The notes below the pieces were generated by a model, which worked only from the letters and a program-made list of their open reading frames with translations, was not told the origin of the DNA and searched no databases. A program made the translations under genes and the position numbers. Of a stretch of DNA of 64,000 bases, positions 26,998 to 64,000 are shown piece after piece. This DNA is from Otis tarda. Its lineage: Eukaryota > Chordata > Aves > Otidiformes > Otididae. Position 1 is the stretch's first letter. The number at the start of each line of letters is the position of its first letter. The stretch spans positions 62,001-126,000 of the forward strand of contig CM048557.1 of assembly GCA_026413225.1 (NCBI GenBank). The letters run 5' to 3'.

Positions 26998-27000
26998 TCA
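26998..27000 (-). other. In-frame UGA at the gag-pol boundary
   Basis: After the nucleocapsid end (AHLDEEN) a TGA lies in the same frame as the protease (LPDLVKIKLGEE). Gammaretroviruses express pol by readthrough of one stop at this position, usually UAG. Whether UGA was the original signal or a later change cannot be told from one copy. Confidence 0.75.
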
Positions 27001-27543: not shown

Positions 27544-27592
27544 CAGAGCCGGCACACTGGCTGTTAGCGTCTACTTGGAACCAGCCGCGCAG
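27544..27592 (-). repeat. Partial inverted segment at the provirus junction
   Basis: CAGAGCCGGCACACTGGC through GAACCAGCCGCGCAG is the terminal part of an inverted cassette, cut by the provirus. The next cassette end is 1,322 bp away. Confidence 0.8.
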
Positions 27593-28264
27593 AAAAGCGC
27601 AGGTGCTAAAAAGCGCACGTGAGGAGCAGTACGGGCTTACAGAGCAGCCGTTTCTCATGTTGGAGAGTCGCCAGGCATCCACACTATAAAGTGCCTCACT
27701 TCCCTGGACAGCTTGGAGAACGCGATTGTAGCTGTTCAGGAAAGCACAGAGATACAATGTTCGTGTGCCTTTAGGGCTGCTAGCAAGAAGACTCCGGAGA
27801 ATGCACTTCTCGTGTAGCGGTGATAATCCGCTCTTCGTCGGCTGGAGAACGACTTCCTTCTGTGCGGCTGGTTCCAAGTTGACGGTAAACTGCCAGTGTG
27901 CGGGCTCTGTAAGATAGTGAAGAGGCTCGACGTTTGTGTGTACGTAGATCTGCTAGAAAGCGCACGTGAGGAGCAGGAAGGGCTTTCAGAGCAGCCTGTT
28001 CTCGTGTTGGAGAGTTGCCAGACATCCACACTTTCAGTGCCTCATTTCCCTGGACAGCTTGCAAAAGACATGATTGTAGTTGTCCCAGCGCAAGCTGATC
28101 AGGAAAGCACAAAGATACAATGTTCGTGTGCCTTTAGGGCTGCTAGCAAGAAGATTCCGGAGAATGCACTTCTCGTGTAGCGGCGATCATCCGCTCTTTG
28201 TCGGCTGGAGAACGAATTCCTTCTGCGCGGCTGGTTCCAATTTCCCTGGACTGCTTGGAAAGTT

Positions 28265-28914
28265 CCTTCTCCGGAGTCTTCTTGCTAGCAGCCATAAAGG
28301 CACACGAACATTGTAGCTCTGTGCTTTCCTGAACAGCTTGCGCTGGGACAGCTACAATCGTGTATTTTCCAAGCTGTCCAGAGAAATGAGGCACTGAAAA
28401 TGTGGATGTCTGGCGACTCTCTAAGACGAAAACCAGCTGCTCTGAAAGCCCTTCCTGCTCCTCACGTGCGCTTTCTGCAGATCTACGGACACACAAACGT
28501 CGAGCCTCTTCATTATCCTACACAGATAGCACACTGGCAGGTACGGTCAACTTGGAACGAGCCGAGCAGAAGGAAGTCGTCCTCTATTCGAGGAAGAGCG
28601 GATGATGGCCGTTACACGAGAAGGGCGTTCTCCGGAGTCTTCTTGCTAGCAGCCCTAAAGGCACACGAACATTGTAGCTCTGTGCTTTCCTGAACAGCTA
28701 CAATCGCGTTCTCCAAGCTGTCCAGGGAAGTGAGGCACTTTATAGTGCGGATGTTTGGCGACTCACCAACACCAGAACAGGCTGCTCTGAAAACCCTTCT
28801 TGCTCCTCACGTGCGCTTTCTGCAGATCTACGGACACACAAACGTCGAGCCTCTTCACTATCCTACAGAGCCGGCACACTGGCTGTTACCGCCTACTTGG
28901 AACCAGCCGCGCAG
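28265..28914 (-). repeat. Inverted cassette 1, long, with flipped 98-bp spacer
   Basis: It differs from all later cassettes. The spacer at 28,167-28,264 reads CACTTCTCGTGTAGCGG to GCTTGGAAAGTT, continuing the forward array, and the sequence inverts at CCTTCTCCGG (28,265). The later cassettes contain the reverse complement of this spacer (about 7 differences in 98 bp). The inverted stretch is ~650 bp instead of ~402 bp. Confidence 0.85.
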
Positions 28915-29286
28915 AAAAGCGCAGGTGCTAAAAAGCGCACGTGAGGAGCAGTACGGGCTTACAGAGCAGCCGTTTCTCATGTTGGAGAGTCGCCAGGCAT
29001 CCACACTATAAAGTGCCTCACTTCCCTGGACAGCTTGAAGAACGCGATTGTAGCTGTTCAGGAAAGCACAGAGATACAATGTTCGTGTGCCTTTAGGGCT
29101 GTAGCAAGAAGGCTCCGGAGAAGACACGTCTCGTGTAGCGGCCATCATCCGCGGTTCGTTGGAAAGAGGACGTCTTCCTTCTGCGCAGCTGGTTCCAAGT
29201 TGACAGTACCTGCAAGTGTGCTATCTGTGTAGGATAGTGAAGAGGCTCGACGTTTGTGTGTCCGTAGATCTGCAGAAAGCGCACGT

Positions 29287-29646
29287 GAGGAGCAGGAAGG
29301 GCTTTCAGAGCAGCCTGTTCTCATGTTGGAGAGTCGCCAGGAATCCGCACTTTCAGTGCCTCATTTCCCTGGACAGCTTGCAAAATACACGATTGTAGCT
29401 GTCCCAGCGCAAGCTGATCAGGAAAGCACAGAGCTACAATGTTCGTGTGCCTTTAGGGCTGTAGCAAGAAGGCTCCGGAGAAGACACTTCTCGTGTAGCG
29501 GCGATCATCCGCGTTTCGTTGGAAAGAGGACGTCTTCCTTCTGCGCGGCTGGTTCCAAGTTGACAGTACCTGCAAGTGTTCTATCTGTGTAGGATAGTGA
29601 AGAGGCTCGACGTTTGTGTGTCCGTAGATCTGCAGAAAGCGCACGT
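29287..29646 (+). repeat. Representative array-2 dimer (half B then half A)
   Basis: Half B is about 29,287-29,475 and half A about 29,476-29,646. The conserved GGAG core is at 29,289 in B, 29,477 in A and 29,649 in the next B, giving 188 + 172 bp. The CENP-B-box-like site of half A is at 29,514-29,530. Confidence 0.88.
29514..29530 (+). other. CENP-B-box-like 17-mer in half A
   Basis: TTTCGTTGGAAAGAGGA agrees with the mammalian CENP-B box (YTTCGTTGGAARCGGGA) at 15 of 17 positions; both mismatches lie in the CGGG part needed for binding. Identical copies are at 47,106-47,122, 52,421-52,437, 52,779-52,795, 58,207-58,223 and 61,945-61,961. Sister copies beginning GTTCGTTGG are at 29,154 and near 35,910, 37,239, 42,307 and 44,340. 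No binding is shown. Confidence 0.5.
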
Positions 29647-29843
29647 GAGGAGCAGGAAGGGCTTTCAGAGCAGCCTGTTCTCATGTTGGAGAGTTGCCAG
29701 ACATCCACACTTTCAGTGCCTCATTTCCCTGGACAGCTTGCAAAACGCGATTGTAGCTGTCCCAGCGCAAGCTGATCAGGAAAGCACAGAGATACAATGT
29801 TCCTGTGCCTTTATGGCTGCTAGCAAGAAGACTCCGGAGAAGG

Positions 29844-30246
29844 AACTTTCCAAGCAGTCCAGGGAAATTGGAACCAGCCGCACAGAAGGAAGACGTCCTC
29901 TAGCCGACCAACAGCGGATGATCGCCGCTACACGAGATGTGCCTTCTCCGACTCTTCTTGCTAGCAGCCCTAAAGGCACACGAACATTGTAGCTCTGTGC
30001 TTTCCTGAACAGCTTGCCCTGGGACAGCTACAATCGCGTTCTCCAAGCTGTTCAGGGAAGTGAGGCACTTTATAGTGCGGATGTTTGGCGACTCTCCAAC
30101 ACCAGAACAGGCTGCTCTGAAAGCCCTTCCTGCTCCTTCACGTGCGCTTTTTAGCAGATCTACGGACACACAAACGTCGAGCCTCTTCACTATCCTACAG
30201 AGCCGGCACACTGGCTGTTACCGTCTACTTGGAACCAGCCGCGCAG
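29844..30246 (-). repeat. Inverted cassette 2
   Basis: Spacer 29,844-29,941 (98 bp), then the inverted arm from CCTTCTCCGACTC to GCCGCGCAG. It ends 1,332 bp after the previous one (n = 1). Confidence 0.92.
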
Positions 30247-31532
30247 AAAAGCGCAGGTGCTAAAAAGCGCACGTGAGGAGCAGTACGGGCTTACAGAGCA
30301 GCCGTTTCTCATGTTGGAGAGTCGCCAGGCATCCACACTATAAAGTGCCTCACTTCCCTGGACAGCTTGGAGAACGCGATTGTAGCTGTTCAGGAAAGCA
30401 CAGAGATACAATGTTCGTGTGCCTTTAGGGCTGTAGCAAGAGGGCTCCGGAGAAGACACTTCTCGTGTAGCGGCCATCATCCGCGGTTCGTCGGAAAGAG
30501 GACGTCTTCCTTCTGCGCAGCTGGTTCCAAGTTGACAGTACCTGCCAGTGTGCTATCTGTGTAGGATAGTGAAGAGGCTCGACGTTTGTGTGTCCGTAGA
30601 TCTGCAGAAAGCGCACGTGAGGAGCAGGAAGGGCTTTCAGAGCAGCCTGTTCTCATGTTGGAGAGTTGCCAGACATCCACACTATAAAGTGCCTCATTTC
30701 CCTGGACAGCTTGCAAAAGACATGATTGTAGCTGTCACCAGGGCAAGCTGATCAGGAAAGCACAGAGCTACAATGTTCGTGTGCCTTTATGGCTCTAGCA
30801 AGAAGGCTCCGGAGAAGCCACTTCTCGTGTAGCGGCCATCATCCGCTGTTGGTCGGAAAGAGGACGTCTTCCTTCTGCGCGGCTGGTTTCAAGTTGACCG
30901 TACCTGCCCGTGTGCTATCTGTGTAGGATAGTGAAGAGGCTCGACGTTTGTGTGTCCGTAGATCTGCTAAAAAGCGCACGTGAGGAGCAGGAAGGGCTTT
31001 CAGAGCAGCCTGTTCTCATGTTGGAGAGTTGCCAGACATCCACACTTTCAGTGCCTCATTTCCCTGGACAGCTTGGAAAACGCGATTGTAGCTGTCCCAG
31101 CGCAAGCTGATCAGGAAAGCACAGACATACAATGTTCGTGTGCCTTTAGGGCTGTAGCAAGAAGACTCCGGAGAAGGCACTTCTCGTGTAGCGGCCATCA
31201 TCCGCTCTTCGTTGAATAGAGGACGACTTCCTTCTGCGCGGCTCGTTCCAAGTTGACGGTAAGTGTGTCTGCTCTGTAGGATAGTGAAGAGGCTCGACGT
31301 TTGTGTGTCCGTAGATCTGCAGAAAGCGCACGTGAGGAGCAGGAAGGGCTTTCAGAGCAGCCTGTTCTCATGTTGGAGAGTTGCCAGACATCCACACTTT
31401 CAGTGCCTCATTTCCCTGGACAGCTTGCAAAAGACAAGATTGTAGCTGTCCCAGCGCAAGCTGATCAGGAAAGCACAGAGCTACAATGTTCGTGTGCCTT
31501 TATGGCTGCTAGCAAGAAGACTCCGGAGAAGG

Positions 31533-31933
31533 AACTTTCCAAGCAGTCCAGGGAAATTGGAACCAGCCACGCAGAAGGAAGACGTCCTCTGGCCGACCAA
31601 CAGCGGATGATCGCCGCTACACGAGATGTGCCTTCTCCGACTCTTCTTGCTAGCAGCCCTAAAGGCACACGAACATTGTAGCTCTGTGCTTTCCTGAACA
31701 GCTTGCGCTGGGACAGCTACAATCGCGTTCTCCAAGCTGTTCAGGGAAGTGAGGCACTTTATAGTGCGGATGTTTGGCGACTCTCCAACACCAGAACTGG
31801 CTGCTCTGAAAGCCCTCCTGCTCCTCACGTGCGCTTTTTAGCAGATCTACGGACACACAAACGTCGAGCATCTTCACTATCCTACAGAGCCGGCACACTG
31901 GCTGTTACCGTCTACTTGGAACCAGCCGCGCAG
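31533..31933 (-). repeat. Inverted cassette 3
   Basis: It ends 1,687 bp after the previous one (n = 2). It shares a single-base-shorter AAGCCCTCCTGC tract (others AAGCCCTTCCTGC) with cassettes 5 and 9. Confidence 0.92.
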
Positions 31934-33222
31934 AAAAGCGCAGGTGCTAAAAAGCGCACGTGAGGAGCAGTACGGGCTTACAGAGCAGCCGTTTCTCATG
32001 TTGGAGAGTCGCCAGGCATCCACACTATAAAGTGCCTCACTTCCCTGGACAGCTTGGAGAACGCGATTGTAGCTGTTCAGGAAAGCACAGAGATACAATG
32101 TTCGTGTGCTTTAATGGCTGTAGCTAGAAGGCTCCGGAGAAGACACGTCTCGTGTAGCGGCGATCATCCGCGGTTCGTCGGAAAGAGGACGTCTTCCTTC
32201 TGCGCAGCTGGTTCCAAGTTGACAGTACTTGCCAGTGTGCTATCTGTGTAGGATAGTGAAGAGGCTCGACGTTTGTGTGTCCGTAGATCTGTTAAAAAGC
32301 GCACGTGAGGAGCAGGAAGGGCTTTCAGAGCAGCCTGTTCTCATGTTGGAGAGTTGCCAGACATCAACACTTTCAGTGCCTCATTTCCCTGGACAGCTTG
32401 CAAAAGACATGATTGAGGCTGTCCCAGCGCAAGCTGATCATCAAAACACAGAGCTACAATGTTCGTGTGCCTTTAGGGCTGTAGCAAGAAGGCTCCGGAG
32501 AAGACACTTCTCGTGTAGCGGCGATCATCCGCTGTTGGTCGGAAAGAGGACGTCTTCCTTCTGCGCGGCTGTTTCCAAGTTGACCGTACCTGCCAGTGTG
32601 CTATCTGTGTAGGATAGTGAAGAGGCTCGACGTTTGTGTGTCCGTAGATCTGTTAAAAAGCGCACGTGAGGAGCAGGAAGGGCTTTCAGTGCAGCCTGTT
32701 CTCATGTTGGAGAGTTGCCAGACATCCACACTTTCAGTGCCTCATTTCCCTGGACAGCTTGCAAAACGCGATTGTAGCTGTCCCAGCGCAAGCTGATCAG
32801 GAAAGCACAGAGATACAATGTTCGTGTGCCTTTAGGGCTGTAGCAAGAAGACTCCGGAGAAGGCACTTCTCGTGTAGCGGCCATCATCCGCTCTTCGTTG
32901 AATAGAGGACGACTTCCTTCTGCGCGGCTCGTTCCAAATTGACGGTAAGTGTAAGTGTGTCAGCTCTGTAGGATAGTGAAGAGGCTCGACGTTTGTGTGT
33001 CCGTAGATCTGCAGAAAGCGCACGTGAGGAGCAGGAAGGGCTTTCAGAGCAGCCTGTTCTCATGTTGGAGAGTTGCCAGACATCCACACTTTCAGTGCCT
33101 CATTTCCCTGGACAGCTTGCAAAACGCGATTGTAGCTGTCCCAGCGCAAGCTGATCAGGAAAGCACAGAGCTACAATGTTCGTGTGCCTTTATGGCTGCT
33201 AGCAAGAAGACTCCGGAGAAGG

Positions 33223-33625
33223 AACTTTCCAAGCAGTCCAGGGAAATTGGAACCAGCCGCACAGAAGGAAGACGTCCTCTAGCCGACCAACAGCGGATGA
33301 TCGCCGCTACACGAGATGTGCCTTCTCCGACTCTTCTTGCTAGCAGCCCTAAAGGCACACGAACATTGTAGCTCTGTGCTTTCCTGGAACAGCTTGCCCT
33401 GGGACAGCTACAATCGCGTTCTCCAAGCTGTTCAGGGAAGTGAGGCACTTTATAGTGCGGATGTTTGGCGACTCTCCAACACCAGAACTGGCTGCTCTGA
33501 AAGCCCTTCCTGCTCCTTCACGTGCGCTTTTAGCAGATCTACGGACACACAAACGTCGAGCCTCTTCACTATCCTACAGAGCCGGCACACTGGCTGTTAC
33601 CGTCTACTTGGAACCAGCCGCGCAG
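33223..33625 (-). repeat. Inverted cassette 4
   Basis: Reference copy for the geometry: left arm ~32,920-33,222, spacer 33,223-33,320, right arm 33,321-~33,625. It ends 1,692 bp after the previous one (n = 2). Confidence 0.93.
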
Positions 33626-35267
33626 AAAAGCGCAGGTGCTAAAAAGCGCACGTGAGGAGCAGTACGGGCTTACAGAGCAGCCGTTTCTCATGTTGGAGAG
33701 TCGCCAGGCATCCACACTATAAAGTGCCTCACTTCCCTGGACAGCTTGGAGAACGCGATTGTAGCTGTTCAGGAAAGCACAGAGCTACAATGTTCGTGTG
33801 CCTTTAGGGCTGTAGCAAGAGGGCTCCGGAGAAGACACTTCTCGTGTAGCGGCCATCATCCGCGGTTCGTCGGAAAGAGGACGTCTTCCTTCTGCGCGGC
33901 TGGTTCCAAGTTGACAGTACCTGCCAGTGTGCTATCTGTGTAGGATAGTGAAGAGGCTCGACGTTTGTGTGTCCGTAGATCTGCAGAAAGCGCACGTGAG
34001 GAGCAGGAAGGGCTTTCAGAGCAGCCTGTTCTCATGTTGGAGAGTTGCCAGACATCAACACTTTCAGTGCCTCATTTCCCTGGACAGCTTGCAAAAGACA
34101 TGATTGAGGCTGTCCCAGCGCAAGCTGATCATCAAAACACAGAGCTACAATGTTCGTGTGCCTTTAGGGCTGTAGCAAGAAGACTCCGGAGAAGGCACTT
34201 CTCGTGTAGCGGCCATCATCCGCTCTTCGTCGAATAGAGGACGACTTCCTTCTGCGCGGCTGTTTCCAAGTTGACCGTACCTGCCAGTGTGCTATCTGTG
34301 TAGGATAGTGAAGAGGCTCGACGTTTGTGTGTCCGTAGATCTGTTAAAAAGCGCACGTGAGGAGCAGGAAGGGCTTTCAGTGCAGCCTGTTCTCATGTTG
34401 GAGAGTTGCCAGACATCCACACTTTCAGTGCCTCATTTCCCTGGACAGCTTGCAAAACGCGATTGTAGCTGTCCCAGCGCAAGCTGATCAGGAAAGCACA
34501 GAGATACAATGTTCGTGTGCCTTTAGGGCTGTAGCAAGAAGACTCCGGAGAAGGCACTTCTCGTGTAGCGGCCATCATCCGCTCTTCGTTGAATAGAGGA
34601 CGACTTCCTTCTGCGCGGCTCGTTCCAAATTGACGGTAAGTGTAAGTGTGTCAGCTCTGTAGGATAGTGAAGAGGCTCGACGTTTGTGTGTCCGTAGATC
34701 TGCAGAAAGTGCACGTGAGGAGCAGGAAGGGCTTTCAGAGCAGCCTGTTCTCATGTTGGAGAGTCGCCAGGAATCCGCACTTTCAGTGCCTCATTTCCCT
34801 GGACAGCTTGGAAAACGCGATTGTAGCTGTCCCAGCGCAAGCTGATCAGGAAAGCACAGAGATACAATGTTCGTGTGCCTTTAGGGCTGTAGCAAGAAGA
34901 CTCCGGAGAAGGCACTTCTCGTGTAGCGGCCATCATCCGCTCTTCGTCGAATAGAGGACGACTTCCTTCTGCGCGGCTCGTTCCAAGTTGACGGTAAGTG
35001 TGTCTGCTCTGTAGGATAGTGAAGAGGCTCGACGTTTGTGTGTCCGTAGATCTTCAGAAAGCGCACGTGAGGAGCAGGAAGGGCTTTCAGAGCAGCCTGT
35101 TCTCATGTTGGAGAGTTGCCAGACATCCACACTTTCAGTGCCTCATTTCCCTGGACAGCTTGCAAAAGACAAGATTGTAGCTGTCCCAGCGCAAGCTGAT
35201 CAGGAAAGCACAGAGCTACAATGTTCGTGTGCCTTTATGGCTGCTAGCAAGAAGACTCCGGAGAAGG

Positions 35268-35668
35268 AACTTTCCAAGCAGTCCAGGGAAATTGGAACCA
35301 GCCGCGCAGAAGGAAGACGTCCTCTGGCCGACCAACAGCGGATGATCGCCGCTACACGAGATGTGCCTTCTCCGACTCTTCTTGCTAGCAGCCCTAAAGG
35401 CACACGAACATTGTAGCTCTGTGCTTTCCTGAACAGCTTGCGCTGGGACAGCTACAATCGCGTTCTCCAAGCTGTTCAGGGAAGTGAGGCACTTTATAGT
35501 GCGGATGTTTGGCGACTCTCCAACACCAGAACTGGCTGCTCTGAAAGCCCTCCTGCTCCTCACGTGCGCTTTTTAGCAGATCTACGGACACACAAACGTC
35601 GAGCCTCTTCACTATCCTACAGAGCCGGCACACTGGCTGTTAACGTCTACTTGGAACCAGCCGCGCAG
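35268..35668 (-). repeat. Inverted cassette 5
   Basis: It ends 2,043 bp after the previous one (n = 3). Its TGTTAACGTCTAC variant recurs in cassette 9, its copy in the ~6.4-kb-offset duplication. Confidence 0.92.
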
Positions 35669-36596
35669 AAAAGCGCAGGTGCTAAAAAGCGCACGTGAGG
35701 AGCAGTACGGGCTTACAGAGCAGCCGTTTCTCATGTTGGAGAGTCGCCAGGCATCCACACTATAAAGTGCCTCACTTCCCTGGACAGCTTGGAGAACGCG
35801 ATTGTAGCTGTTCAGGAAAGCACAGAGATACAATGTTCGTGTGCTTTAATGGCTGTAGCTAGAAGGGTCCGGAGAAGACACGTCTCGTGTAGCGGCGATC
35901 ATCCGCGGTTCGTTGGAAAGAGGACGTCTTCCTTCTGCGCGGCTGTTTCCAAGTTGACCGTACCTGCCAGTGTGCTATCTGTGTAGGATAGTGAAGAGGC
36001 TCGACGTTTGTGTGTCCGTAGATCTGTTAAAAAGCGCACGTGAGGAGCAGGAAGGGCTTTCAGAGCAGCCTGTTCTCATGTTGGAGAGTTGCCAGACATC
36101 AACACTTTCAGTGCCTCATTTCCCTGGACAGCTTGGAAAACGCGATTGTAGCTGTCCCAGCGCAAGCTGATCAGGAAAGCACAGAGCTACAATGTTCGTG
36201 TGCCTTTAGGGCTGTAGCAAGAAGACTCCGGAGAAGGCACTTCTCGTGTAGCGGCCATCATCCGCTCTTCGTTGAATAGAGGACGACTTCCTTCTGCGCG
36301 GCTGGTTCCAAGTTGACAGTACCTGCAAGTGGTCTATCTGTGTAGGATAGTGAAGAGGCTCGACGTTTGTGTGTCCGTAGATCTGCAGAAAGCGCACGTG
36401 AGGAGCAGGAAGGGCTTTCAGAGCAGCCTGTTCTCATGTTGGAGAGTTGCCAGACATCCACACTTTCAGTGCCTCATTTCCCTGAACAGCTTGGAGAACG
36501 CGATTGTAGCTGTCCCAGCGCAAGCTGTTCAGGAAAGCACAGAGCTACAATGTTCGTGTGCCTTTATGGCTGCTAGCAAGAAGACTCCGGAGAAGG

Positions 36597-36997
36597 AACT
36601 TTCCAAGCAGTCCAGGGAAATTGGAACCAGCCGCGCAGAAGGAAGACGTCCTCTAGCCGACCAACAGCGGATGATGGCCGCTACACGAGAAGTGCCTTCT
36701 CCGACTCTTCTTGCTAGCAGCCCTAAAGGCACACGAACATTGTAGCTCTGTGCTTTCCTGAACAGCTTGCGCTGGGACAGCTACAATCGCGTTCTCCAAG
36801 CTGTTCAGGGAAGTGAGGCACTTTATAGTGCGGATGTTTGGCGACTCTCCAACACCAGAACAGGCTGCTCTGAAAACCCTTCCTGCTCCTCACGTGCGCT
36901 TTCTGCAGATCTACGGACACACAAACGTCGAGCCTCTTCACTATCCTACAGAGCCGGCACACTGGCTGTTACCGTCTACTTGGAACCAGCCGCGCAG
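36597..36997 (-). repeat. Inverted cassette 6
   Basis: It ends 1,329 bp after the previous one (n = 1). The spacer ends GAGAAGTG rather than GAGATGTG, a variant shared with cassettes 7, 10, 12 and 17. Confidence 0.92.
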
Positions 36998-37925
36998 AAA
37001 AGCGCAGGTGCTAAAAAGCGCACGTGAGGAGCAGTACGGGCTTACAGAGCAGCCGTTTCTCATGTTGGAGAGTCGCCAGGCATCCACACTATAAAGTGCC
37101 TCACTTCCCTGGACAGCTTGGAGAACGCGATTGTAGCTGTTCAGGAAAGCACAGAGATACAATGTTCGTGTGCTTTAATGGCTGTAGCTAGAAGGCTCCG
37201 GAGAAGACACGTCTCGTGTAGCGGCGATCATCCGCGGTTCGTTGGAAAGAGGACGTCTTCCTTCTGCGCGGCTGTTTCCAAGTTGACCGTACCTGCCAGT
37301 GTGCTATCTGTGTAGGATAGTGAAGAGGCTCGACGTTTGTGTGTCCGTAGATCTGTTAAAAAGCGCACGTGAGGAGCAGGAAGGGCTTTCAGAGCAGCCT
37401 GTTCTCATGTTGGAGAGTTGCCAGACATCAACACTTTCAGTGCCTCATTTCCCTGGACAGCTTGGAAAACGCGATTGTAGCTGTCCCAGCGCAAGCTGAT
37501 CAGGAAAGCACAGAGCTACAATGTTCGTGTGCCTTTAGGGCTGTAGCAAGAAGACTCCGGAGAAGGCACTTCTCGTGTAGCGGCCATCATCCGCTCTTCG
37601 TTGAATAGAGGACGACTTCCTTCTGCGCGGCTGGTTCCAAGTTGACAGTACCTGCAAGTGGTCTATCTGTGTAGGATAGTGAAGAGGCTCGACGTTTGTG
37701 TGTCCGTAGATCTGCAGAAAGCGCACGTGAGGAGCAGGAAGGGCTTTCAGAGCAGCCTGTTCTCATGTTGGAGAGTTGCCAGACATCCACACTTTCAGTG
37801 CCTCATTTCCCTGAACAGCTTGGAGAACGCGATTGTAGCTGTCCCAGCGCAAGCTGTTCAGGAAAGCACAGAGCTACAATGTTCGTGTGCCTTTATGGCT
37901 GCTAGCAAGAAGACTCCGGAGAAGG

Positions 37926-38326
37926 AACTTTCCAAGCAGTCCAGGGAAATTGGAACCAGCCGCGCAGAAGGAAGACGTCCTCTAGCCGACCAACAGCGGA
38001 TGATGGCCGCTACACGAGAAGTGCCTTCTCCGACTCTTCTTGCTAGCAGCCCTAAAGGCACACGAACATTGTAGCTCTGTGCTTTCCTGAACAGCTTGCG
38101 CTGGGACAGCTACAATCGCGTTCTCCAAGCTGTTCAGGGAAGTGAGGCACTTTATAGTGCGGATGTTTGGCGACTCTCCAACACCAGAACAGGCTGCTCT
38201 GAAAACCCTTCCTGCTCCTCACGTGCGCTTTCTGCAGATCTACGGACACACAAACGTCGAGCCTCTTCACTATCCTACAGAGCCGGCACACTGGCTGTTA
38301 CCGTCTACTTGGAACCAGCCGCGCAG
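37926..38326 (-). repeat. Inverted cassette 7
   Basis: It ends 1,329 bp after the previous one (n = 1) and is a near-identical tandem copy of cassette 6 with its flanks. Confidence 0.92.
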
Positions 38327-39615: not shown

Positions 39616-40018
39616 AACTTTCCAAGCAGTCCAGGGAAATTGGAACCAGCCGCACAGAAGGAAGACGTCCTCTAGCCGACCAACAGCGGATGATCGCCGC
39701 TACACGAGATGTGCCTTCTCCGACTCTTCTTGCTAGCAGCCCTAAAGGCACACGAACATTGTAGCTCTGTGCTTTCCTGAACAGCTTGCCCTGGGACAGC
39801 TACAATCGCGTTCTCCAAGCTGTTCAGGGAAGTGAGGCACTTTATAGTGCGGATGTTTGGCGACTCTCCAACACCAGAACTGGCTGCTCTGAAAGCCCTT
39901 CCTGCTCCTTCACGTGCGCTTTTTAGCAGATCTACGGACACACAAACGTCGAGCCTCTTCACTATCCTACAGAGCCGGCACACTGGCTGTTACCGTCTAC
40001 TTGGAACCAGCCGCGCAG
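39616..40018 (-). repeat. Inverted cassette 8
   Basis: It ends 1,692 bp after the previous one (n = 2) and is the duplicate of cassette 4. The run after GCGCAG is one A shorter (CAGAAAGCGC). Confidence 0.92.
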
Positions 40019-53111: not shown

Positions 53112-53514
53112 AACTTTCCAAGCAGTCCAGGGAAATTGGAACCAGCCGCACAGAAGGAAGACGTCCTCTAGCCGACCAACAGCGGATGATCGCCCCTACA
53201 CGAGATGTGCCTTCTCCGACTCTTCTTGCTAGCAGCCCTAAAGGCACACGAACATTGTAGCTCTGTGCTTTCCTGAACAGCTTGCGCTGGGACAGCTACA
53301 ATCGCGTTCTCCAAGCTGTTCAGGGAAGTGAGGCACTTTATAGTGCGGATGTTTGGCGACTCTCCAACACCAGAACAGGCTGCTCTGAAAGCCCTTCCTG
53401 CTCCTTCACGTGCGCTTTTTAGCAGATCTACGGACACACAAACGTCGAGCCTCTTCACTATCCTACAGAGCCGGCACACTGGCTGTTACCGTCTACTTGG
53501 AACCAGCCGCGCAG
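53112..53514 (-). repeat. Inverted cassette 16
   Basis: It ends 2,410 bp after the previous one (n = 4). The spacer has CGCCCCTACACGAG. Confidence 0.92.
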
Positions 53515-54442
53515 AAAGCGCAGGTGCTAAAAAGCGCACGTGAGGAGCAGTACGGGCTTACAGAGCAGCCGTTTCTCATGTTGGAGAGTCGCCAGGCATC
53601 CACACTATAAAGTGCCTCACTTCCCTGGACAGCTTGGAGAACGCGATTGTAGCTGTTCAGGAAAGCACAGAGCTACAATGTTCGTGTGCCTTTAGGGCTG
53701 TAGCAAGAAGGCTCCGGAGAGGACACTTCTCGTGTAGCGGCGATCATCCGCGGTTCTTCGGAAAGAGGACGTCTTCCTTCTGCGCGGCTGGTTCCAAGTT
53801 GACAGTACCTGCCAGTGTGCTATCTGTGTAGGATAGTGAAGAGGCTCGACGTTTGTGTGTCCGTAGATCTGCAGAAAGCGCACGTGAGGAGCAGGAAGGG
53901 CTTTCAGAGCAGCCTGTTCTCATGTTGGAGAGTTGCCAGACATCAACACTTTCAGTGCCTCATTTCCCTGGACAGCTTGCAAAAGACATGATTGAGGCTG
54001 TCCCAGCGCAAGCTGATCATCAAAACACAGAGCTACAATGTTCTTGTGCCTTTAGGGCTGTAGCAAGAAGGCTCCGGAGAAGACACTTCTCGTGTAGCGG
54101 CGATCATCCGCTGTTGGTCGGAAAGAGGACGTCTTCCTTCTGCGCGGCTGTTTCCAAGTTGACCGTACCTGCCAGTGTGCTATCTGTGTAGGATAGTGAA
54201 GAGGCTCGACGTTTGTGTGTCCGTAGATCTGCAGAAAGCGCACGTGAGGAGCAGGAAGGGCTTTCAGAGCAGCCTGTTCTCATGTTGGAGAGTTGCCAGA
54301 CATCCACACTTTCAGTGCCTCATTTCCCTGGACAGCTTGGAAAACGCGATTGTAGCTGTCCCAGCGCAAGCTGATCAGGAAAGCACAGAGATACAATGTT
54401 CGTGTGCCTTTATGGCTGCTAGCAAGAAGACTCCGGAGAAGG

Positions 54443-54843
54443 AACTTTCCAAGCAGTCCAGGGAAATTGGAACCAGCCGCGCAGAAGGAAGATGTCCTCT
54501 AGCCGACCAACAGCGGATGATCGCCGCTACACGAGAAGTGCCTTCTCCGACTCTTCTTGCTAGCAGCCCTAAAGGCACACGAACATTGTAGCTCTGTGCT
54601 TTCCTGAACAGCTTGCGCTGGGACAGCTACAATCGCGTTCTCCAAGCTGTTCAGGGAAGTGAGGCACTTTATAGTGCGGATGTTTGGCGACTCTCCAACA
54701 CCAGAACAGGCTGCTCTGAAAACCCTTCCTGCTCCTCATGTGCGCGTTCTGCAGATCTACGGACACACAAACGTCGAGCCTCTTCACTATCCTACAGAGC
54801 CGGCACACTGGCTGTTACCGTTTATTTGGAACGAGCCGCGCAG
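54443..54843 (-). repeat. Inverted cassette 17
   Basis: It ends 1,329 bp after the previous one (n = 1). The E-box in its right arm is mutated (CTCATGTGCGCG). Confidence 0.92.
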
Positions 54844-55769
54844 AAAAGCGCAGGTGCTAAAAAGCGCACGTGAGGAGCAGTACGGGCTTACAGAGCAGCC
54901 GTTTCTCATGTTGGAGAGTCGCCAGGCGTCCACACTATAAAGTGCCTCACTTCCCTGGACAGCTTGGAGAACGCGATTGTAGCTGTTTAGGAAAGCACAG
55001 AGCTACAATGTTCGTGTGCCTTTAGGGCTGTAGCAAGAAGGCTCCGGAGAAGGCACTTCTCGTGTAGCGGCCATCATCCGCTCTTCGTCGAATAGAGGAC
55101 GACTTCCTTCTGCGCGGCTCGTTCCAAGTTGACGGTAAGTGTGTCGGCTCTGTAGGATAGTGAAGAGGCTCGACGTTTGTGTGTCCGTAGATCTGCAGAA
55201 AGCGCACGTGAGGAGCAGGAAGGGCTTTCAGAGCAGCCTGTTCTCATGTTGGAGAGTTGCCAGACATCCACACTTTCAGTGCCTCATTTCCCTGGACAGC
55301 TTGCAAAAGACAAGATTGTAGCTGTCCCAGCGCAAACTGATCAGGAAAGCACAGAGATACAATGTTCGTGTGCCTTTATGGCTCTAGCAAGAAGGCTCCA
55401 GAGAAGACACTTCTCGTGTAGCGGCCATCATCCGCGGTTTGTCGGAAAGAGGACGTCTTCCTTCTGCGCGGCTGGTTCTAAGTTGACCGTACCTGCCAGT
55501 GTGCTATCTGTGTAGGATAGTGAAGAGGCTCGACGTTTGTGTGTCCGTAGATCTGTTAAAAAGCGCACGTGAGGAGCAGGAAGGGCTTTCAGTGCAGCCT
55601 TTTCTGGTGTTGGAGAGTTGCCAGACATCCACACTTTCAGTGCCTCATTTCCCTGGACAGCTTGCAAAAGACATGATTGTAGCTGTCCCAGCGCAAGCTG
55701 ATCAGGAAAGCACAGAGCTACAATGTTCGTGTGCCTTTATGGCTGCTAGCAAGAAGACTCCGGAGAAGG

Positions 55770-56171
55770 AACTTTCCAAGCAGTCCAGGGAAATTGGAAC
55801 CAGCCGCGCAGAAGGAAGACGTCCTCTGGCCGACCAACAGCGGATGATCGCCGCTACACGAGATGTGCCTTCTCCGACTCTTCTTGCTAGCAGCCCTAAA
55901 GGCACACGAACATTGTAGCTCTGTGCTTTCCTGAACAGCTTGCCCTGGGACAGCTACAATCGCGTTCTCCAAGCTGTTCAGGGAAGTGAGGCACTTTATA
56001 GTGCGGATGTTTGGCGACTCTCCAACACCAGAACTGGCTGCTCTGAAAGCCCTTCCTGCTCCTCACGTGCGCTTTTTAGCAGATCTACGGACACACAAAC
56101 GTCGAGCCTCTTCACTATCCTACAGAGCCGGCACACTGGCTGTTACCGTCTACTTGGAACCAGCCGCACAG
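55770..56171 (-). repeat. Inverted cassette 18
   Basis: It ends 1,328 bp after the previous one (n = 1). The right end reads GCCGCACAG, as in cassette 20, its counterpart in the 3,738-bp repeat. Confidence 0.92.
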
Positions 56172-58537
56172 AAAAGCGCAGGTGCTAAAAAGCGCACGTG
56201 AGGAGCAGTACGGGCTTACAGAGCAGCCGTTTCTCATGTTGGAGAGTCGCCAGGCATCCACACTATAAAGTGCCTCACTTCCCTGGACAGCTTGGAGAAC
56301 GCGATTGTAGCTGTTCAGGAAAGCACAGAGATACAATGTTCGTGTGCTTTTATGGCTCTAGCAAGAAGGCTCCGGAGAAGACACTTCTCGTGTAGCGGCG
56401 ATCATCCGCGGTTCGTCGGAAAGAGGACGTCTTCCTTCTGCGCGGCTGGTTCCAAGTTGACCGTACCTGCCAGTGTGCTATCTGTGTAGGATAGTGAAGA
56501 GGCTCGACGTTTGTGTGTCCGTAGATCTGTTAAAAAGCGCACGTGAGGAGCAGGAAGGGCTTTCAGTGCAGCCTGTTCTCATGTTGGAGAGTTGCCAGAC
56601 ATCCACACTTTCAGTGCCTCATTTCCCTGGACAGCTTGCAAAACGCCATTGTAGCTGTCCCAGCGCAAGCTGATCAGGAAAGCACAGAGCTACAATGTTC
56701 GTGTGCCTTTAGGGCTGTAGCAAGAAGACTCCGGAGAAGGCACTTCTCGTGTAGCGGCCATCATCCGCTCTTCGTTGAATAGAGGACGACTTCCTTCTGC
56801 GCAGCTCGTTCCAAATTGACGGTAAGTGTAAGTGTGTCGGCTCTGTAGGATAGTGAAGAGGCTCGACGTTTGTGTGTCCGTAGATCTGCAGAAAGCGCAC
56901 GTGAGGAGCAGGAAGGGCTTTCAGAGCAGCCTGTTCTCATGTTGGAGAGTCGCCAGGAATCCGCTCTTTCAGTGCCTCATTTCCCTGGACAGCTTGCAAA
57001 ATACACGATTGTAGCTGTCCCAGCGCAAGCTGATCAGGAAAGCACAGAGCTACAATGTTCGTGTGCCTTTAGGGCTGTAGCAAGAAGGCTCCGGAGAAGA
57101 CACTTCTCGTGTAGCGGCGATCATCCGCGGTTCGTCGGAAAGAGGACGTCTTCCTTCTGCGCGGCTGGTTCCAAGTTGACAGTACCTGCCAGTGTGCTAT
57201 CTGTGTAGGATAGTGAAGAGGCTCGACTTTTGTGTGTCCGTAGATCTGCAGAAAGCGCACGTGAGGAGCAGGAAGGGCTTTCAGAGCAGCCAGTTCTCAT
57301 GTTGGAGAGTTGCCAGACATCAACACTTTCAGTGCCTCATTTCCCTGGACAGCTTGCAAAAGACATGATTGAGGCTGTCCCAGCGCAAGCTGATCATCAA
57401 AACAGAGAGATACAATGTTCGTGTGCCTTTAGGGCTGTAGCAAGAAGGCTCCGGAGAAGACACTTCTCGTGTAGCGGCCATCATCCGCTGTTGGTCGGAA
57501 AGAGGACGTCTTCCTTCTGCGCGGCTGGTTCCAAGTTGACCGTACCTGCCAGTGTGCTATCTGTGTAGGATAGTGAAGAGGCTCGACGTTTGTGTGTCCG
57601 TAGATCTGTTAAAAAGCGCACGTGAGGAGCAGGAAGGGCTTTCAGTGCAGCCTGTTCTCATGTTGGAGAGTTGCCAGACATCCACACTTTCAGTGCCTCA
57701 TTTCCCTGGACAGCTTGGAAAACGCGATTGTAGCTGTCCCAGGGCAAGCTGATCAGGAAAGCACAGAGCTACAATGTTCGTGTGCCTTTAGGGCTGTAGC
57801 AAGAAGACTCCGGAGAAGGCACTTCTCGTGTAGCGGCCATCATCCGCTCTTCGTTGAATAGAGGACGACTTCCTTCTGCGCGGCTCGTTCCAAATTGACG
57901 GTAAGTGTAAGTGTGTCGGCTCTGTAGGATAGTGAAGAGGCTCGACGTTTGTGTGTCCGTAGATCTGCAGAAAGTGCACGTGAGGAGCAGGAAGGGCTTT
58001 CAGAGCAGCCTGTTCTCATGTTGGAGAGTCGCCAGGAATCCGCACTTTCAGTGCCTCATTTCCCTGGACAGCTTGGAAAACGCGATTGTAGCTGTCCCAG
58101 CGCAAGCTGAGCAGGAAAGCACAGAGCTACAATGTTCGTGTGCCTTTAGGGCTGTAGCAAGAAGGCTCCGGAGAAGACACTTCTCGTGTAGCGGCGATCA
58201 TCCGTGTTTCGTTGGAAAGAGGACGTCTTCCTTCTGCGCGGCTGGTTCCAAGTTGACAGTACCTGCAAGTGTTCTATCTGTGTAGGATAGTGAAGAGGCT
58301 CGACGTTTGTGTGTCCGTAGATCTGCTAAAAAGCGCACGTGAGGAGCAGGAAGGGCTTTCAGAGCAGCCTGTTCTGGTGTTGGAGAGATGCCAGACATCC
58401 ACACTTTCAGTGCCTCATTTCCCTGGACAACTTGGAAAACGCGATTGTAGCTGTCCCAGCGCAAGCTGATCAGGAAAGCACAGAGCTACAATGTTCGTGT
58501 GCCTTTATGGCTGCTAGCAAGAAGACTCCGGAGAAGG

Positions 58538-58938
58538 AACTTTCCAAGCAGTCCAGGGAAATTGGAACCAGCCGCGCAGAAGGAAGACGTCCTCTAGCCG
58601 ACCAACAGCGGATGATCGCCGCTACACAGATGTGCCTTCTCCGACTCTTCTTGCTAGCAGCCCTAAAGGCACACGAACATTGTAGCTCTGTGCTTTCCTG
58701 AACAGCTTGCCCTGGGACAGCTACAATCGCGTTCTCCAAGCTGTTCAGGGAAGTGAGGCACTTTATAGTGCGGATGTTTGGCGACTCTCCAACACCAGAA
58801 CTGGCTGCTCTGAAAGCCCTTCCTGCTCCTCACGTGCGCTTTTTAGCAGATCTACGGACACACAAACGTCGAGCCTCTTCACTATCCTACAGAGCCGGCA
58901 CACTGGCTGTTACCGTCTACTTGGAACCAGCCGCGCAG
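58538..58938 (-). repeat. Inverted cassette 19
   Basis: It ends 2,767 bp after the previous one (n = 5, the maximum spacing). The spacer has a 2-bp deletion, CTACACAGATG. Confidence 0.92.
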
Positions 58939-59508
58939 AAAAGCGCAGGTGCTAAAAAGCGCATGTGAGGAGCAGTACGGGCTTACAGAGCAGCCGTTTC
59001 TCATGTTGGAGAGTCGCCAGGCATCCACACTATAAAGTGCCTCACTTCCCTGGACAGCTTGGAGAACGCGATTGTAGCTGTTCAGGAAAGCACAGAGATA
59101 CAATGTTCGTGTGCTTTTATGGCTCTAGCAAGAAGGCTCCGGAGAAGACACTTCTCGTGTAGCGGCGATCATCCGCGGTTCGTCGGAAAGAGGACGTCTT
59201 CCTTCTGCGCGGCTGGTTCCAAGTTGACCGTACCTGCCAGTGTGCTATCTGTGTAGGATAGTGAAGAGGCTCGACGTTTGTGTGTCCGTAGATCTGTTAA
59301 AAAGCGCACGTGAGGAGCAGGAAGGGCTTTCAGAGCAGCCTGTTCTCATGTTGGAGAGTTGCCAGACATCCACACTTTCAGTGCCTCATTTCCCTGGACA
59401 GCTTGCAAAACGCGATTGTAGCTGTCCCAGCGCAAGCTGAGCAGGAAAGCACAGAGATACAATGTTCCTGTGCCTTTATGGCTGCTAGCAAGAAGACTCC
59501 GGAGAAGG

Positions 59509-59909
59509 ACCTTTCCAAGCAGTCCAGGAAATTGGAACCAGCCGCGCAGAAGGAAGACGTCCTCTAGCCGACCAACAGCGGATGATCGCCGCTACACGAG
59601 ATGTGCCTTCTCCGACTCTTCTTGCTAGCAGCCCTAAAGGCACACGAACATTGTAGCTCTGTGCTTTCCTGAACAGCTTGCGCTGGAACAGCTACAATCG
59701 CGTTCTCCAAGCTGTTCAGGGAAGTGAGGCACTTTATAGTGCGGATGTTTGGCGACTCTCCAACACCAGAACAGGCTGCTCTGAAAGCCCTTCCTGCTCC
59801 TCACGTGCGCTTTTTAGCAGATCTACGGACACACAAACGTCGAGCCTCTTCACTATCCTACAGAGCCGGCACACTGGCTGTTACCGTCTACTTGGAACCA
59901 GCCGCACAG
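59509..59909 (-). repeat. Inverted cassette 20
   Basis: It ends 971 bp after the previous one (n = 0). The spacer lacks one G (GTCCAGGAAATTGG). Confidence 0.92.
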
Positions 59910-62275
59910 AAAAGCGCAGGTGCTAAAAAGCGCACGTGAGGAGCAGTACGGGCTTACAGAGCAGCCGTTTCTCATGTTGGAGAGTCGCCAGGCATCCACA
60001 CTATAAAGTGCCTCACTTCCCTGGACAGCTTGGAGAACGCGATTGTAGCTGTTCAGGAAAGCACAGAGATACAATGTTCGTGTGCTTTTATGGCTCTAGC
60101 AAGAAGGCTCCGGAGAAGACACTTCTCGTGTAGCGGCGATCATCCGCGGTTCGTCGGAAAGAGGACGTCTTCCTTCTGCGCGGCTGGTTCCAAGTTGACC
60201 GTACCTGCCAGTGTGCTATCTGTGTAGGATAGTGAAGAGGCTCGACGTTTGTGTGTCCGTAGATCTGTTAAAAAGCGCACGTGAGGAGCAGGAAGGGCTT
60301 TCAGTGCAGCCTGTTCTCATGTTGGAGAGTTGCCAGACATCCACACTTTCAGTGCCTCATTTCCCTGGACAGCTTGCAAAACGCCATTGTAGCTGTCCCA
60401 GCGCAAGCTGATCAGGAAAGCACAGAGCTACAATGTTCGTGTGCCTTTAGGGCTGTAGCAAGAAGACTCCGGAGAAGGCACTTCTCGTGTAGCGGCCATC
60501 ATCCGCTCTTCGTTGAATAGAGGACGACTTCCTTCTGCGCAGCTCGTTCCAAATTGACGGTAAGTGTAAGTGTGTCGGCTCTGTAGGATAGTGAAGAGGC
60601 TCGACGTTTGTGTGTCCGTAGATCTGCAGAAAGCGCACGTGAGGAGCAGGAAGGGCTTTCAGAGCAGCCTGTTCTCATGTTGGAGAGTCGCCAGGAATCC
60701 GCTCTTTCAGTGCCTCATTTCCCTGGACAGCTTGCAAAATACACGATTGTAGCTGTCCCAGCGCAAGCTGAGCAGGAAAGCACAGAGCTACAATGTTCGT
60801 GTGCCTTTAGGGCTGTAGCAAGAAGGCTCCGGAGAAGACACTTCTCGTGTAGCGGCGATCATCCGCGGTTCGTCGGAAAGAGGACGTCTTCCTTCTGCGC
60901 GGCTGGTTCCAAGTTGACAGTACCTGCCAGTGTGCTATCTGTGTAGGATAGTGAAGAGGCTCGACTTTTGTGTGTCCGTAGATCTGCAGAAAGCGCACGT
61001 GAGGAGCAGGAAGGGCTTTCAGAGCAGCCAGTTCTCATGTTGGAGAGTTGCCAGACATCAACACTTTCAGTGCCTCATTTCCCTGGACAGCTTGCAAAAG
61101 ACATGATTGAGGCTGTCCCAGCGCAAGCTGATCATCAAAACAGAGAGATACAATGTTCGTGTGCCTTTAGGGCTGTAGCAAGAAGGCTCCGGAGAAGACA
61201 CTTCTCGTGTAGCGGCCATCATCCGCTGTTGGTCGGAAAGAGGACGTCTTCCTTCTGCGCGGCTGTTTCCAAGTTGACCGTACCTGCCAGTGTGCTATCT
61301 GTGTAGGATAGTGAAGAGGCTCGACGTTTGTGTGTCCGTAGATCTGTTAAAAAGCGCACGTGAGGAGCAGGAAGGGCTTTCAGTGCAGCCTGTTCTCATG
61401 TTGGAGAGTTGCCAGACATCCACACTTTCAGTGCCTCATTTCCCTGGACAGCTTGCAAAACGCGATTGTAGCTGTCCCAGGGCAAGCTGATCAGGAAAGC
61501 ACAGAGCTACAATGTTCGTGTGCCTTTAGGGCTGTAGCAAGAAGACTCCGGAGAAGGCACTTCTCGTGTAGCGGCCATCATCCGCTCTTCGTTGAATAGA
61601 GGACGACTTCCTTCTGCGCGGCTCGTTCCAAATTGACGGTAAGTGTAAGTGTGTCGGCTCTGTAGGATAGTGAAGAGGCTCGACGTTTGTGTGTCCGTAG
61701 ATCTGCAGAAAGTGCACGTGAGGAGCAGGAAGGGCTTTCAGAGCAGCCTGTTCTCATGTTGGAGAGTCGCCAGGAATCCGCACTTTCAGTGCCTCATTTC
61801 CCTGGACAGCTTGGAAAACGCGATTGTAGCTGTCCCAGCGCAAGCTGAGCAGGAAAGCACAGAGCTACAATGTTCGTGTGCCTTTAGGGCTGTAGCAAGA
61901 AGGCTCCGGAGAAGACACTTCTCGTGTAGCGGCGATCATCCGTGTTTCGTTGGAAAGAGGACGTCTTCCTTCTGCGCGGCTGGTTCCAAGTTGACAGTAC
62001 CTGCAAGTGTTCTATCTGTGTAGGATAGTGAAGAGGCTCGACGTTTGTGTGTCCGTAGATCTGCTAAAAAGCGCACGTGAGGAGCAGGAAGGGCTTTCAG
62101 AGCAGCCTGTTCTGGTGTTGGAGAGATGCCAGACATCCACACTTTCAGTGCCTCATTTCCCTGGACAACTTGGAAAACGCGATTGTAGCTGTCCCAGCGC
62201 AAGCTGATCAGGAAAGCACAGAGCTACAATGTTCGTGTGCCTTTATGGCTGCTAGCAAGAAGACTCCGGAGAAGG

Positions 62276-62676
62276 AACTTTCCAAGCAGTCCAGGGAAAT
62301 TGGAACCAGCCGCGCAGAAGGAAGACGTCCTCTGGCCGACCAACAGCGGATGATCGCCGCTACACAGATGTGCCTTCTCCGACTCTTCTTGCTAGCAGCC
62401 CTAAAGGCACACGAACATTGTAGCTCTGTGCTTTCCTGAACAGCTTGCCCTGGGACAGCTACAATCGCGTTCTCCAAGCTGTTCAGGGAAGTGAGGCACT
62501 TTATAGTGCGGATGTTTGGCGACTCTCCAACACCAGAACTGGCTGCTCTGAAAGCCCTTCCTGCTCCTCACGTGCGCTTTTTAGCAGATCTACGGACACA
62601 CAAACGTCGAGCCTCTTCACTATCCTACAGAGCCGGCACACTGGCTGTTACCGTCTACTTGGAACCAGCCGCGCAG
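62276..62676 (-). repeat. Inverted cassette 21
   Basis: It ends 2,767 bp after the previous one (n = 5). It shares the CTACACAGATG deletion with cassette 19, 3,738 bp upstream. Confidence 0.92.
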
Positions 62677-63247
62677 AAAAGCGCAGGTGCTAAAAAGCGC
62701 ATGTGAGGAGCAGTACGGGCTTACAGAGCAGCCGTTTCTCATGTTGGAGAGTCGCCAGGCATCCACACTATAAAGTGCCTCACTTCCCTGGACAGCTTGG
62801 AGAACGCGATTGTAGCTGTTCAGGAAAGCACAGAGATACAATGTTCGTGTGCTTTTATGGCTCTAGCAAGAAGGCTCCGGAGAAGACACTTCTCGTGTAG
62901 CGGCGATCATCCGCGGTTCGTCGGAAAGAGGACGTCTTCCTTCTGCGCGGCTGGTTCCAAGTTGACCGTACCTGCCAGTGTGCTATCTGTGTAGGATAGT
63001 GAAGAGGCTCGACGTTTGTGTGTCCGTAGATCTGTTAAAAAGCGCACGTGAGGAGCAGGAAGGGCTTTTCAGAGCAGCCTGTTCTCATGTTGGAGAGTTG
63101 CCAGACATCCACACTTTCAGTGCCTCATTTCCCTGGACAGCTTGCAAAACGCGATTGTAGCTGTCCCAGCGCAAGCTGAGCAGGAAAGCACAGAGATACA
63201 ATGTTCCTGTGCCTTTATGGCTGCTAGCAAGAAGACTCCGGAGAAGG

Positions 63248-63649
63248 ACCTTTCCAAGCAGTCCAGGGAAATTGGAACCAGCCGCGCAGAAGGAAGACGT
63301 CCTCTAGCCGACCAACAGCGGATGATCGCCGCTACACGAGATGTGCCTTCTCCGACTCTTCTTGCTAGCAGCCCTAAAGGCACACGAACATTGTAGCTCT
63401 GTGCTTTCCTGAACAGCTTGCGCTGGAACAGCTACAATCGCGTTCTCCAAGCTGTTCAGGGAAGTGAGGCACTTTATAGTGCGGATGTTTGGCGACTCTC
63501 CAACACCAGAACAGGCTGCTCTGAAAACCCTTCCTGCTCCTCACGTGCGCTTTTTAGCAGATCTACGGACACACAAACGTCGAGCCTCTTCACTATCCTA
63601 CAGAGCCGGCACACTGGCTGTTACCGTCTACTTGGAACCAGCCGTGCAG
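63248..63649 (-). repeat. Inverted cassette 22
   Basis: It ends 973 bp after the previous one (n = 0). The right end reads GCCGTGCAG and the following forward unit reads CACGTGAGCAGCAG, private changes. Confidence 0.92.
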
Positions 63650-64000
63650 AAAAGCGCAGGTGCTAAAAAGCGCACGTGAGCAGCAGTACGGGCTTACAGA
63701 GCAGCCGTTTCTCATGTTGGAGAGTCGCCAGGCATCCACACTATAAAGTGCCTCACTTCCCTGGACAGCTTGGAGAACTCGATTGTAGCTGTTCAGGAAA
63801 GCACAGAGCTACAATGTTCGTGTGCCTTTAGGGCTGTAGCAAGAAGACTCCGGAGAAGGCACTTCTCGTGTAGCGGCCATCATCCGCTCTTCGTTGAATA
63901 GAGGACGACTTCCTTCTGCGCGGCTCGTTCCAAATTGACGGTAAGTGTAAGTGTGTCGGCTCTGTAGGATAGTGAAGAGGCTCGACGTTTGTGTGTCCGT

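Follow-up and report, generated by a model that had tools for sequence, protein, structure and literature searches.

We analyzed a window of 64,000 nucleotides from Otis tarda, corresponding to positions 62,001 to 126,000 of the forward strand of contig C6 (CM048557.1, 71.36 Mb) in an assembly of 1,198,220,595 bases and 116 contigs (GCA_026413225.1). From position 27,544 to the window end at 64,000, this DNA consists of a + strand satellite array, here called D, with a unit of about 359 bp (Tandem Repeats Finder (TRF) and strand segmentation). The array runs on to C6:157,475, and the whole main D array spans C6:89,544-157,475, about 68 kb. It is a higher-order repeat (HOR) whose modules each carry one unit in the opposite orientation, and such a module occurs 40 times in the main array. 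Judged by position, it sits in a satellite block at the contig start, where the centromere of an acrocentric bird chromosome is expected. Hemoglobin exons of the assembly indicate a bird: among the chains compared, those of goose, duck and ostrich are closest to one beta exon-2 piece, and none is identical to it. Coordinates are those of the window unless they carry a contig prefix.

Spacing and anatomy of the inverted cassettes

Inverted segments were delimited by a two-state strand segmentation that used shared 11-mers taken from the forward units. This returned 22 complete inverted segments in the window, as a sequence-only reading of the same DNA had counted, together with a cut piece at the array edge that begins at 27,544. 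The first segment (28,242-28,906, - strand) is non-standard, with a length of 665 bp and the left junction described below reversed across its left end. The other 21, hereafter cassettes, measure 393-404 bp and also lie on the - strand, at 29,839-30,238, 31,528-31,925, 33,218-33,617, 35,263-35,660, 36,592-36,989, 37,921-38,318, 39,611-40,010, 41,655-42,058, 42,989-43,386, 45,384-45,782, 47,431-47,828, 48,397-48,796, 49,723-50,124, 50,697-51,096, 53,107-53,506, 54,438-54,835, 55,765-56,157, 58,533-58,930, 59,500-59,895, 62,271-62,668 and 63,239-63,634. The whole array has 40 standard cassettes of this length range, and each of its ends carries one odd inverted segment (665 bp and 933 bp, respectively).

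The sequence-only reading had listed 21 distances between segment ends and fitted them to 970 + n x ~360 bp, with n from 0 to 5. Our right-end distances are identical to 16 of them and differ by 6-7 bp for five, and the formula holds in the complete array. Leaving aside the two odd end segments, the 39 spacings between left ends fit 968 + 359.5n, again with n from 0 to 5, with a root mean square (rms) deviation of 6.8 bp and a largest residual of 17.5 bp. The classes from n = 0 to n = 5 hold 7, 11, 10, 6, 2 and 3 spacings, respectively. Uniform random spacings gave a mean rms of 102 and never fell below 72 in 20,000 draws. Such a lattice alone is what any tandem array would show, and the cause of the spacing arithmetic is ordinary. 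Upstream of the cassette, the nearest unit anchor is 195-202 bp away in each of the 40 standard cases (282 bp at the two odd end segments), and the last unit of each module is therefore truncated. The first anchor after the cassette lies 28-36 bp downstream. Measured from anchor to anchor, the first unit is 338-345 bp long, and most others are 352-363 bp (subtype G often 343 bp, and one B unit 337 bp). The offset of 968 bp is thus the sum of the cassette (~400 bp), ~29 bp to the first anchor, the first unit (~344 bp) and ~197 bp of truncated last unit, whereas the steps of 359.5 bp are due to extra units.

The cassette aligns to a whole D unit over 366-378 bp across all 40; a detailed alignment of the cassette at 31,528-31,925 spans 372 bp. 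At its left end, a short inverted piece from another phase of the unit separates the inverted unit from the end of the forward sequence, and the right end carries about 10 bp of filler. These breakpoint fillers are consistent with template switching. The module is thus made of an inverted unit, a first unit of fixed kind, 0-5 further units and a truncated unit.

To describe the composition of the modules, we clustered the units at 3.5%, which gave subtypes that differ internally by 0-0.023 (subtypes with three or more units) and from each other by 0.036-0.13 (whole-unit subtypes). Runs 1-40 were typed, and in all 40 the first unit belongs to subtype A, F or H; a standard cassette precedes 39 of these runs, and the 665-bp segment precedes the other. 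Run 41, behind the 40th standard cassette, lay outside the typing of the clustering, and its first unit is 98.0% like A. Away from the first place, A, F and H occur only once (F, second unit of run 10). The middle units (B, C, D, E, G and I) form recurring strings such as A-D-B-E, A-C-G and F-B-E-D-B-E. In particular, A-C-G is found in seven runs, and F-B-E-D-B-E followed by a lone F is found twice; these repeated strings are consistent with block duplication. The distances between subtypes H and A (0.066), H and B (0.056) and A and B (0.106) suggest that H may be an A/B recombinant. Overall, subtypes recur in register and module copies are more alike than units within a module, as in a HOR.

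Shared breakpoints and the origin of the module

We searched the whole 1.198-Gb assembly for the sequences across the cassette ends, with up to three mismatches. The left junction (41 bp) occurs at 47 sites and the right junction (40 bp) at 42, every one of them within C6:6.1-157.4 kb; the junction patterns read backwards have no site. Besides the main array, these sites include two separate islands at C6:6.1-10.1 kb and C6:21.4-22.4 kb. Among the standard cassettes, 39 of 40 have the left junction and 34 of 40 the right one, and in the 40th (C6:121,500) the left junction matches at 97% over 141 bp. The left junction is 96-100% identical among the 40 full-length matches listed, and the mean identity between cassettes is 98.5% (all 780 pairs of the 40; range 96.3-100%). 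The recurrence of the breakpoint sequences, all on C6, argues for one founding event that was then amplified. The claim of the sequence-only reading that a single module was amplified while the count of intervening plain units changes in whole steps is thus borne out by unit typing, spacing, shared junctions and cassette identity.

The shared breakpoints bear on two other explanations. Long near-identical repeats are hard to assemble, and the inverted segments could be artifacts of chimeric or mis-joined reads. However, dozens of copies share their breakpoints yet carry variants of their own, cassettes lie in modules of differing composition and recur in the separate C6 islands, and C6:1-256,000 is free of N; we consider an artifact highly improbable. 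Alternatively, each cassette could have been inverted independently, for example by a site-specific recombinase, and the near-constant length and phase of the inverted segment would fit such a process. It would have to leave the same filler on the left of 39 and on the right of 34 of the 40 cassettes, always next to the same kind of unit; moreover, the unit phase shifts across the cassette, which is not the outcome of a balanced inversion. Repeated inversion is therefore barely credible. The same phase shift (968 is not a multiple of 359.5) led us to reject inversion in situ as the origin of the cassette.

We conclude, with a probability of roughly 0.78, that the array is a chromosome-specific HOR in which one fold-back inversion produced the module, and that the module was then amplified with the array, carrying the inverted unit as a passenger. 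The founding event would have been a template switch during replication (fold-back) inside the D array of C6, in which an inverted copy of a complete unit took the place of part of one D unit. The module would then have been multiplied together with the array through unequal exchange and block duplication, processes that would also add or remove plain units in whole numbers, hence the quantized spacing of the cassettes. Cassette distances correlate with distances in the 330 bp that follow (Mantel r = 0.53, with 0.39 as the largest value in 999 shuffles). Read most simply, array turnover carries the inverted unit along as a passenger, and we found nothing that contradicts amplification.

Several points weigh against this conclusion. 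The passenger view is a default, and a cassette in every module with arms that are 88.5-94.3% alike would also be expected under selection. The evidence for a template switch, which we propose from sequence, is the anatomy of the junctions. Run 0, at the left edge behind the cut cassette, starts with a subtype seen once (J), which is closest to H (94.4%), and the F unit in the second place of run 10 perhaps reflects a lost cassette. Finally, cassette distances do not follow those of the preceding 200 bp (r = 0.17, null maximum 0.25) or physical distance (r = 0.08), and exchange was therefore not simply local.

Dyads, folding and the CENP-B box

The inverted unit gives every module two long dyads. 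In all 40 cassettes there are left arms (median 212 bp, 91.4% alike, spacer of 92 nt) and right arms (median 274 bp, 90.9% alike, spacer of 101 nt), with a range over cassettes of 206-275 bp and 88.5-94.3% identity. When single-strand folding was compared to 20 shuffles in one stretch of each kind, the cassette module reached z = -28, as opposed to -0.9 for plain D units and +0.8 for the 191-bp satellite that surrounds the array. Any inverted copy would give such strong single-strand folding, and arms of 91% identity with spacers of about 100 nt are poorly suited to cruciform extrusion from duplex DNA.

Short dyads gave conflicting results. With a strict measure of our own (arms of at least 7, loops up to 20, 10 shuffles), the first 20 kb of the C6 D array hold 4.15 dyads per kb compared to 1.54 +/- 0.39 after shuffling, and the D array of contig C5 holds 2.12 compared to 1.54 +/- 0.70. 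As for the controls, the 191-bp satellite is below its shuffles and a non-satellite flank shows 1.60 against 1.87. With a published-style measure (arms of at least 5, 3-kb pieces, four nulls each), dyad density is not raised in the 3-kb piece of the C6 D array (0.22, null 0.23). The corresponding values are 0.27 and 0.21 for C5, 0.30 and 0.18 for contig C22, 0.14 and 0.17 for the 191-bp satellite and 0.30 and 0.25 for the flank. In both measures, the repeats are not independent samples. The suggestion of the sequence-only reading that the palindromes could form hairpins or cruciforms therefore has weak and partial support: the inverted arms and the folding of the module speak for it, and the spacers, the arm identity and the disagreement between the short-dyad measures speak against it.

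These results are relevant to the possibility that selection maintains the inverted units, whose dyads would form hairpins or cruciforms, or symmetric nucleosome or kinetochore units, that aid the centromere. A cassette every 1-2.8 kb over the 68-kb array, arms about 91% alike in 40 out of 40 cases, folding that plain units do not show and the larger dyads around the D arrays would all agree with this explanation. On the other hand, the spacers are long, the published-style dyad density is not raised, the D arrays sampled on C5 and C22 lack the cassette, and regular presence is also expected from array homogenization. Overall, we judge selection unlikely, while a structural effect of the inverted units on chromatin is possible.

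The dyad-symmetry hypothesis for centromeres without CENP-B, put forward by Kasinathan and Henikoff and described in the accessible part of PMC9070824, concerns dyads shorter than 10 bp. The C6 array resembles the case described there in that a putative centromeric satellite lacking the CENP-B box carries inverted repeats; it differs in its arms of 206-275 bp and spacers of about 100 nt.

The full CENP-B core (NTTCGNNNNANNCGGGN) has no match in the C6 D array or in the samples from C5, C22 and the 191-bp satellite. The motif is that of the human CENP-B box. Eight sites of the C6 array, seven of them in E units and one in a G unit, match the long consensus at 15 of 17 positions but do not have the CGGG core. 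Although such a match is rare by chance (2 of 20,000 random sequences of unit length, 376 bp), we rejected C6 D as a CENP-B-box satellite because the core is missing. In a profile search for PF09026 there was no match, and the control was likewise silent. PF04218 matched three loci with open frames of 579-607 amino acids, presumably transposase-derived genes.

Satellite strands around the D arrays

We read C6:1-276,000 and scanned its layout in 300-bp steps, dropping blocks shorter than 600 bp. The contig starts with the 191-bp satellite on the + strand (to 5.7 kb), followed by a D island (6.0-10.2 kb), 191(-) to 21.3 kb and a small D island to 22.2 kb. Then 191(+) extends from 22.2 to 84.3 kb, broken by a non-satellite stretch at 33.9-43.2 kb. 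Beyond 84.3 kb come unclassified and provirus sequence, the main D array from 89.5 kb and an inverted copy of the provirus. The 191(-) satellite occupies 161.1-259.2 kb, with an unclassified stretch at 163.2-165.9 kb, and non-satellite DNA follows to the limit of the reading. Within the window, the 191-bp array covers 1-22,198 on the + strand (TRF period 191, 116.5 copies) and extends leftward to about C6:43,201. The G+C content of the 191-bp satellite region is about 55%. Avian centromeric satellites of the RBMII, APL-HaeIII and AFA-HinfI-L type are of similar length (190-192 bp) and have 51.6% G+C, according to the accessible parts of PMC6435179, PMC7787181 and PMC11745021; the comparison covers unit length, G+C content and centromeric location.

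The D unit is related to the 191-bp family, as judged by alignment: two copies of the 191-bp consensus align to the D consensus with z = 7.4 (reverse complement -1.0) and to the C5 D consensus with z = 5.2. The part of the 191-bp satellite most like the D unit is a stretch of diverged repeats at 22,128-22,775 (+ strand, TRF), which aligns to D with z = 13.5 (reverse-complement control -1.5). D is probably an offshoot of the 191-bp family, from which it would descend. The 361-bp "dimer" of the sequence-only reading survives weakly, as a statement on ancestry: D may once have been a dimer, since the unit halves resemble each other with z = 6.3 at the best of four cuts and 2.0-3.7 at the others. 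We dropped an identification with the zebra finch satellites Tgut191A or Tgut716A, as the names were absent from the literature searched and contig C1 (216.4 Mb), with beta-globins near its end, did not fit zebra finch.

Other D arrays lie on C5 and C22. A 32-bp D marker has 973 sites in the assembly (624 + and 349 -), and those among the 100 places listed are on C6 and C5 only. The D sampled on C5 and C22 is 86-87.5% alike to one C6 unit, and three 10-kb samples of these arrays contain no inverted segments of single units. With both junctions confined to C6, the cassette-bearing array is a chromosome-specific form. At C5:196,001-206,000, all 28 marker matches are on the + strand, with spacings of 358-371 bp except for one of 209 bp, which is probably a partial unit. 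At C22:9,664,001-9,674,000, all 25 matches are on the - strand, 328-362 bp apart; units of ~328 and ~361 bp are mixed in these 10 kb, perhaps as another higher-order form, and no inversions occur there. The third sample (C22:9,438,001-9,448,000) has 12 matches on the + strand followed by 11 on the - strand, and two larger gaps (1,514 and 469) among them.

The last sample points to symmetry at a larger scale. The C6 island at 6.0-10.2 kb is a D(+) to D(-) palindrome of the cassette-bearing repeat, with arms of up to 1.8 kb and 96% identity, and lies between 191(+) and 191(-). Similar D(+) to D(-) switches are found at C22:9.44 Mb and, from sampled points, between 220 and 230 kb of C5. Samples along C5 gave 191(-) at 141-142 kb, D(+) at 143 kb, 191(+) at 150 and 170 kb, D(+) at 196-206 and 220 kb, D(-) at 230-257 kb and non-satellite DNA at 260 kb. 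On C22 they gave 191(+) at 9.405-9.430 Mb, D(+) then D(-) at 9.434-9.448 Mb and 191(+) at 9.4495 Mb; further on, D(+) at 9.500 Mb, 191(+) at 9.600 Mb, 191(-) at 9.655-9.664 Mb, D(-) at 9.665-9.674 Mb and 191(+) at 9.6755 Mb. Five of the six D islands with both flanks sampled lie between opposite 191 strands (three on C6, C5 at 143 kb and C22 at 9.665 Mb). The D sample at C22:9.500 Mb is left out of this count; its nearest 191 samples, 50 and 100 kb away, are both on the + strand.

In C6:1-259 kb, every strand switch of the 191-bp satellite is a D island and vice versa (3 out of 3). We did not keep this as a strict rule: the island at C22:9.44 Mb has 191(+) on both sides, and C5 changes strand at least twice between sampled points at 1, 50 and 100 kb, where no D copy (0-1 mismatch) appears among the marker matches listed. 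C22 also changes strand between 9.600 and 9.655 Mb.

Satellite arrays usually run in one direction over long stretches. Human alpha satellite is not known to have a unit of opposite orientation in each module. In other respects, the C6 array behaves like human alpha satellite and the 41-bp CNM HORs of chicken, as far as the accessible part of PMC9974502 describes the latter, with a recurring subtype order, differences of whole units between modules, chromosome-specific variants and block duplications. It differs from the CNM HORs in having one opposite-orientation unit per module; the terms "inverted" and "palindrom" do not appear in that part of PMC9974502. The HOR satellite is of a known kind; the inverted unit in each module sets this one apart. 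We found no earlier report of such a unit in a bird satellite, in a literature set with few subscription papers. With one inverted unit per module over 68 kb of a single chromosome, the array is a natural experiment on the importance of large dyads for a centromere, and the D arrays of C5 and C22, cassette-free where sampled, provide controls within the same genome.

The strand switches resemble the macro-dyads of Tribolium satellites. The accessible part of PMC13081366 (2026) describes arrays that switch strand, inversion points that are 98-99% conserved and two related satellites that alternate, and gives macro-dyads as documented so far only in these flour beetles; the one later paper with the term, PMC13427858, contains it in its reference list only. 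Strand-switching arrays and two related satellites are also found here. In that description of Tribolium, kilobase subarrays face each other, whereas in C6 single units are inverted at steps of 1-2.8 kb and the larger dyads come in addition. The strand switches of the 191-bp satellite suggest a similar architecture in a bird. A broader proposal would be that strand switching is a design principle of (peri)centromeres: D islands would mark the strand changes of the 191-bp satellite, D arrays would be mirror-symmetric, the inverted units of C6 would carry the symmetry into each module, and a change of orientation rather than sequence would mark the core. We regard this proposal as tentative and rather doubtful. 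If true, a vertebrate would have its own equivalent of the Tribolium macro-dyads, here with a further layer at fine scale.

The main D array is itself bounded by inverted repeats about 66.5 kb apart. To its left, at 23,897-27,543 on the - strand, lie retrovirus-like pieces with protease, reverse transcriptase and RNase H in separate broken frames (24,820-26,997; four of five pieces above the Pfam cut-off). This stretch (C6:85,897-89,543) recurs, inverted, at the opposite end of the array (C6:157,419-161,124), with 99.4% identity over 3,709 bp. The duplication also includes the first D units: its left copy covers 23,897-28,243, and C6:85,897-90,243 and C6:161,124-156,781 are inverted copies over 4,352 bp (98.2%), with the exact joint between provirus and cassette end included. 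Both ends of the main array (C6:90,242-90,906 and C6:156,473-157,475) show an odd inverted segment together with a reversed left junction, at C6:90,229 and C6:156,460. We ruled out that the 191-bp arms around the main array are a register-specific inverted duplication, as the top registers are all at 86-87%. When a 1-kb piece of the provirus was compared to the assembly, 38 of the best 40 of 4,450 candidate matches were outside C6, with 92-94% identity over positions 356-1001. Thirty of these 38 lie in the first 450 kb of their contig, and several of these 30 are on high-numbered contigs, which may or may not be short. This distribution suggests that the provirus may be enriched at centromeric ends.

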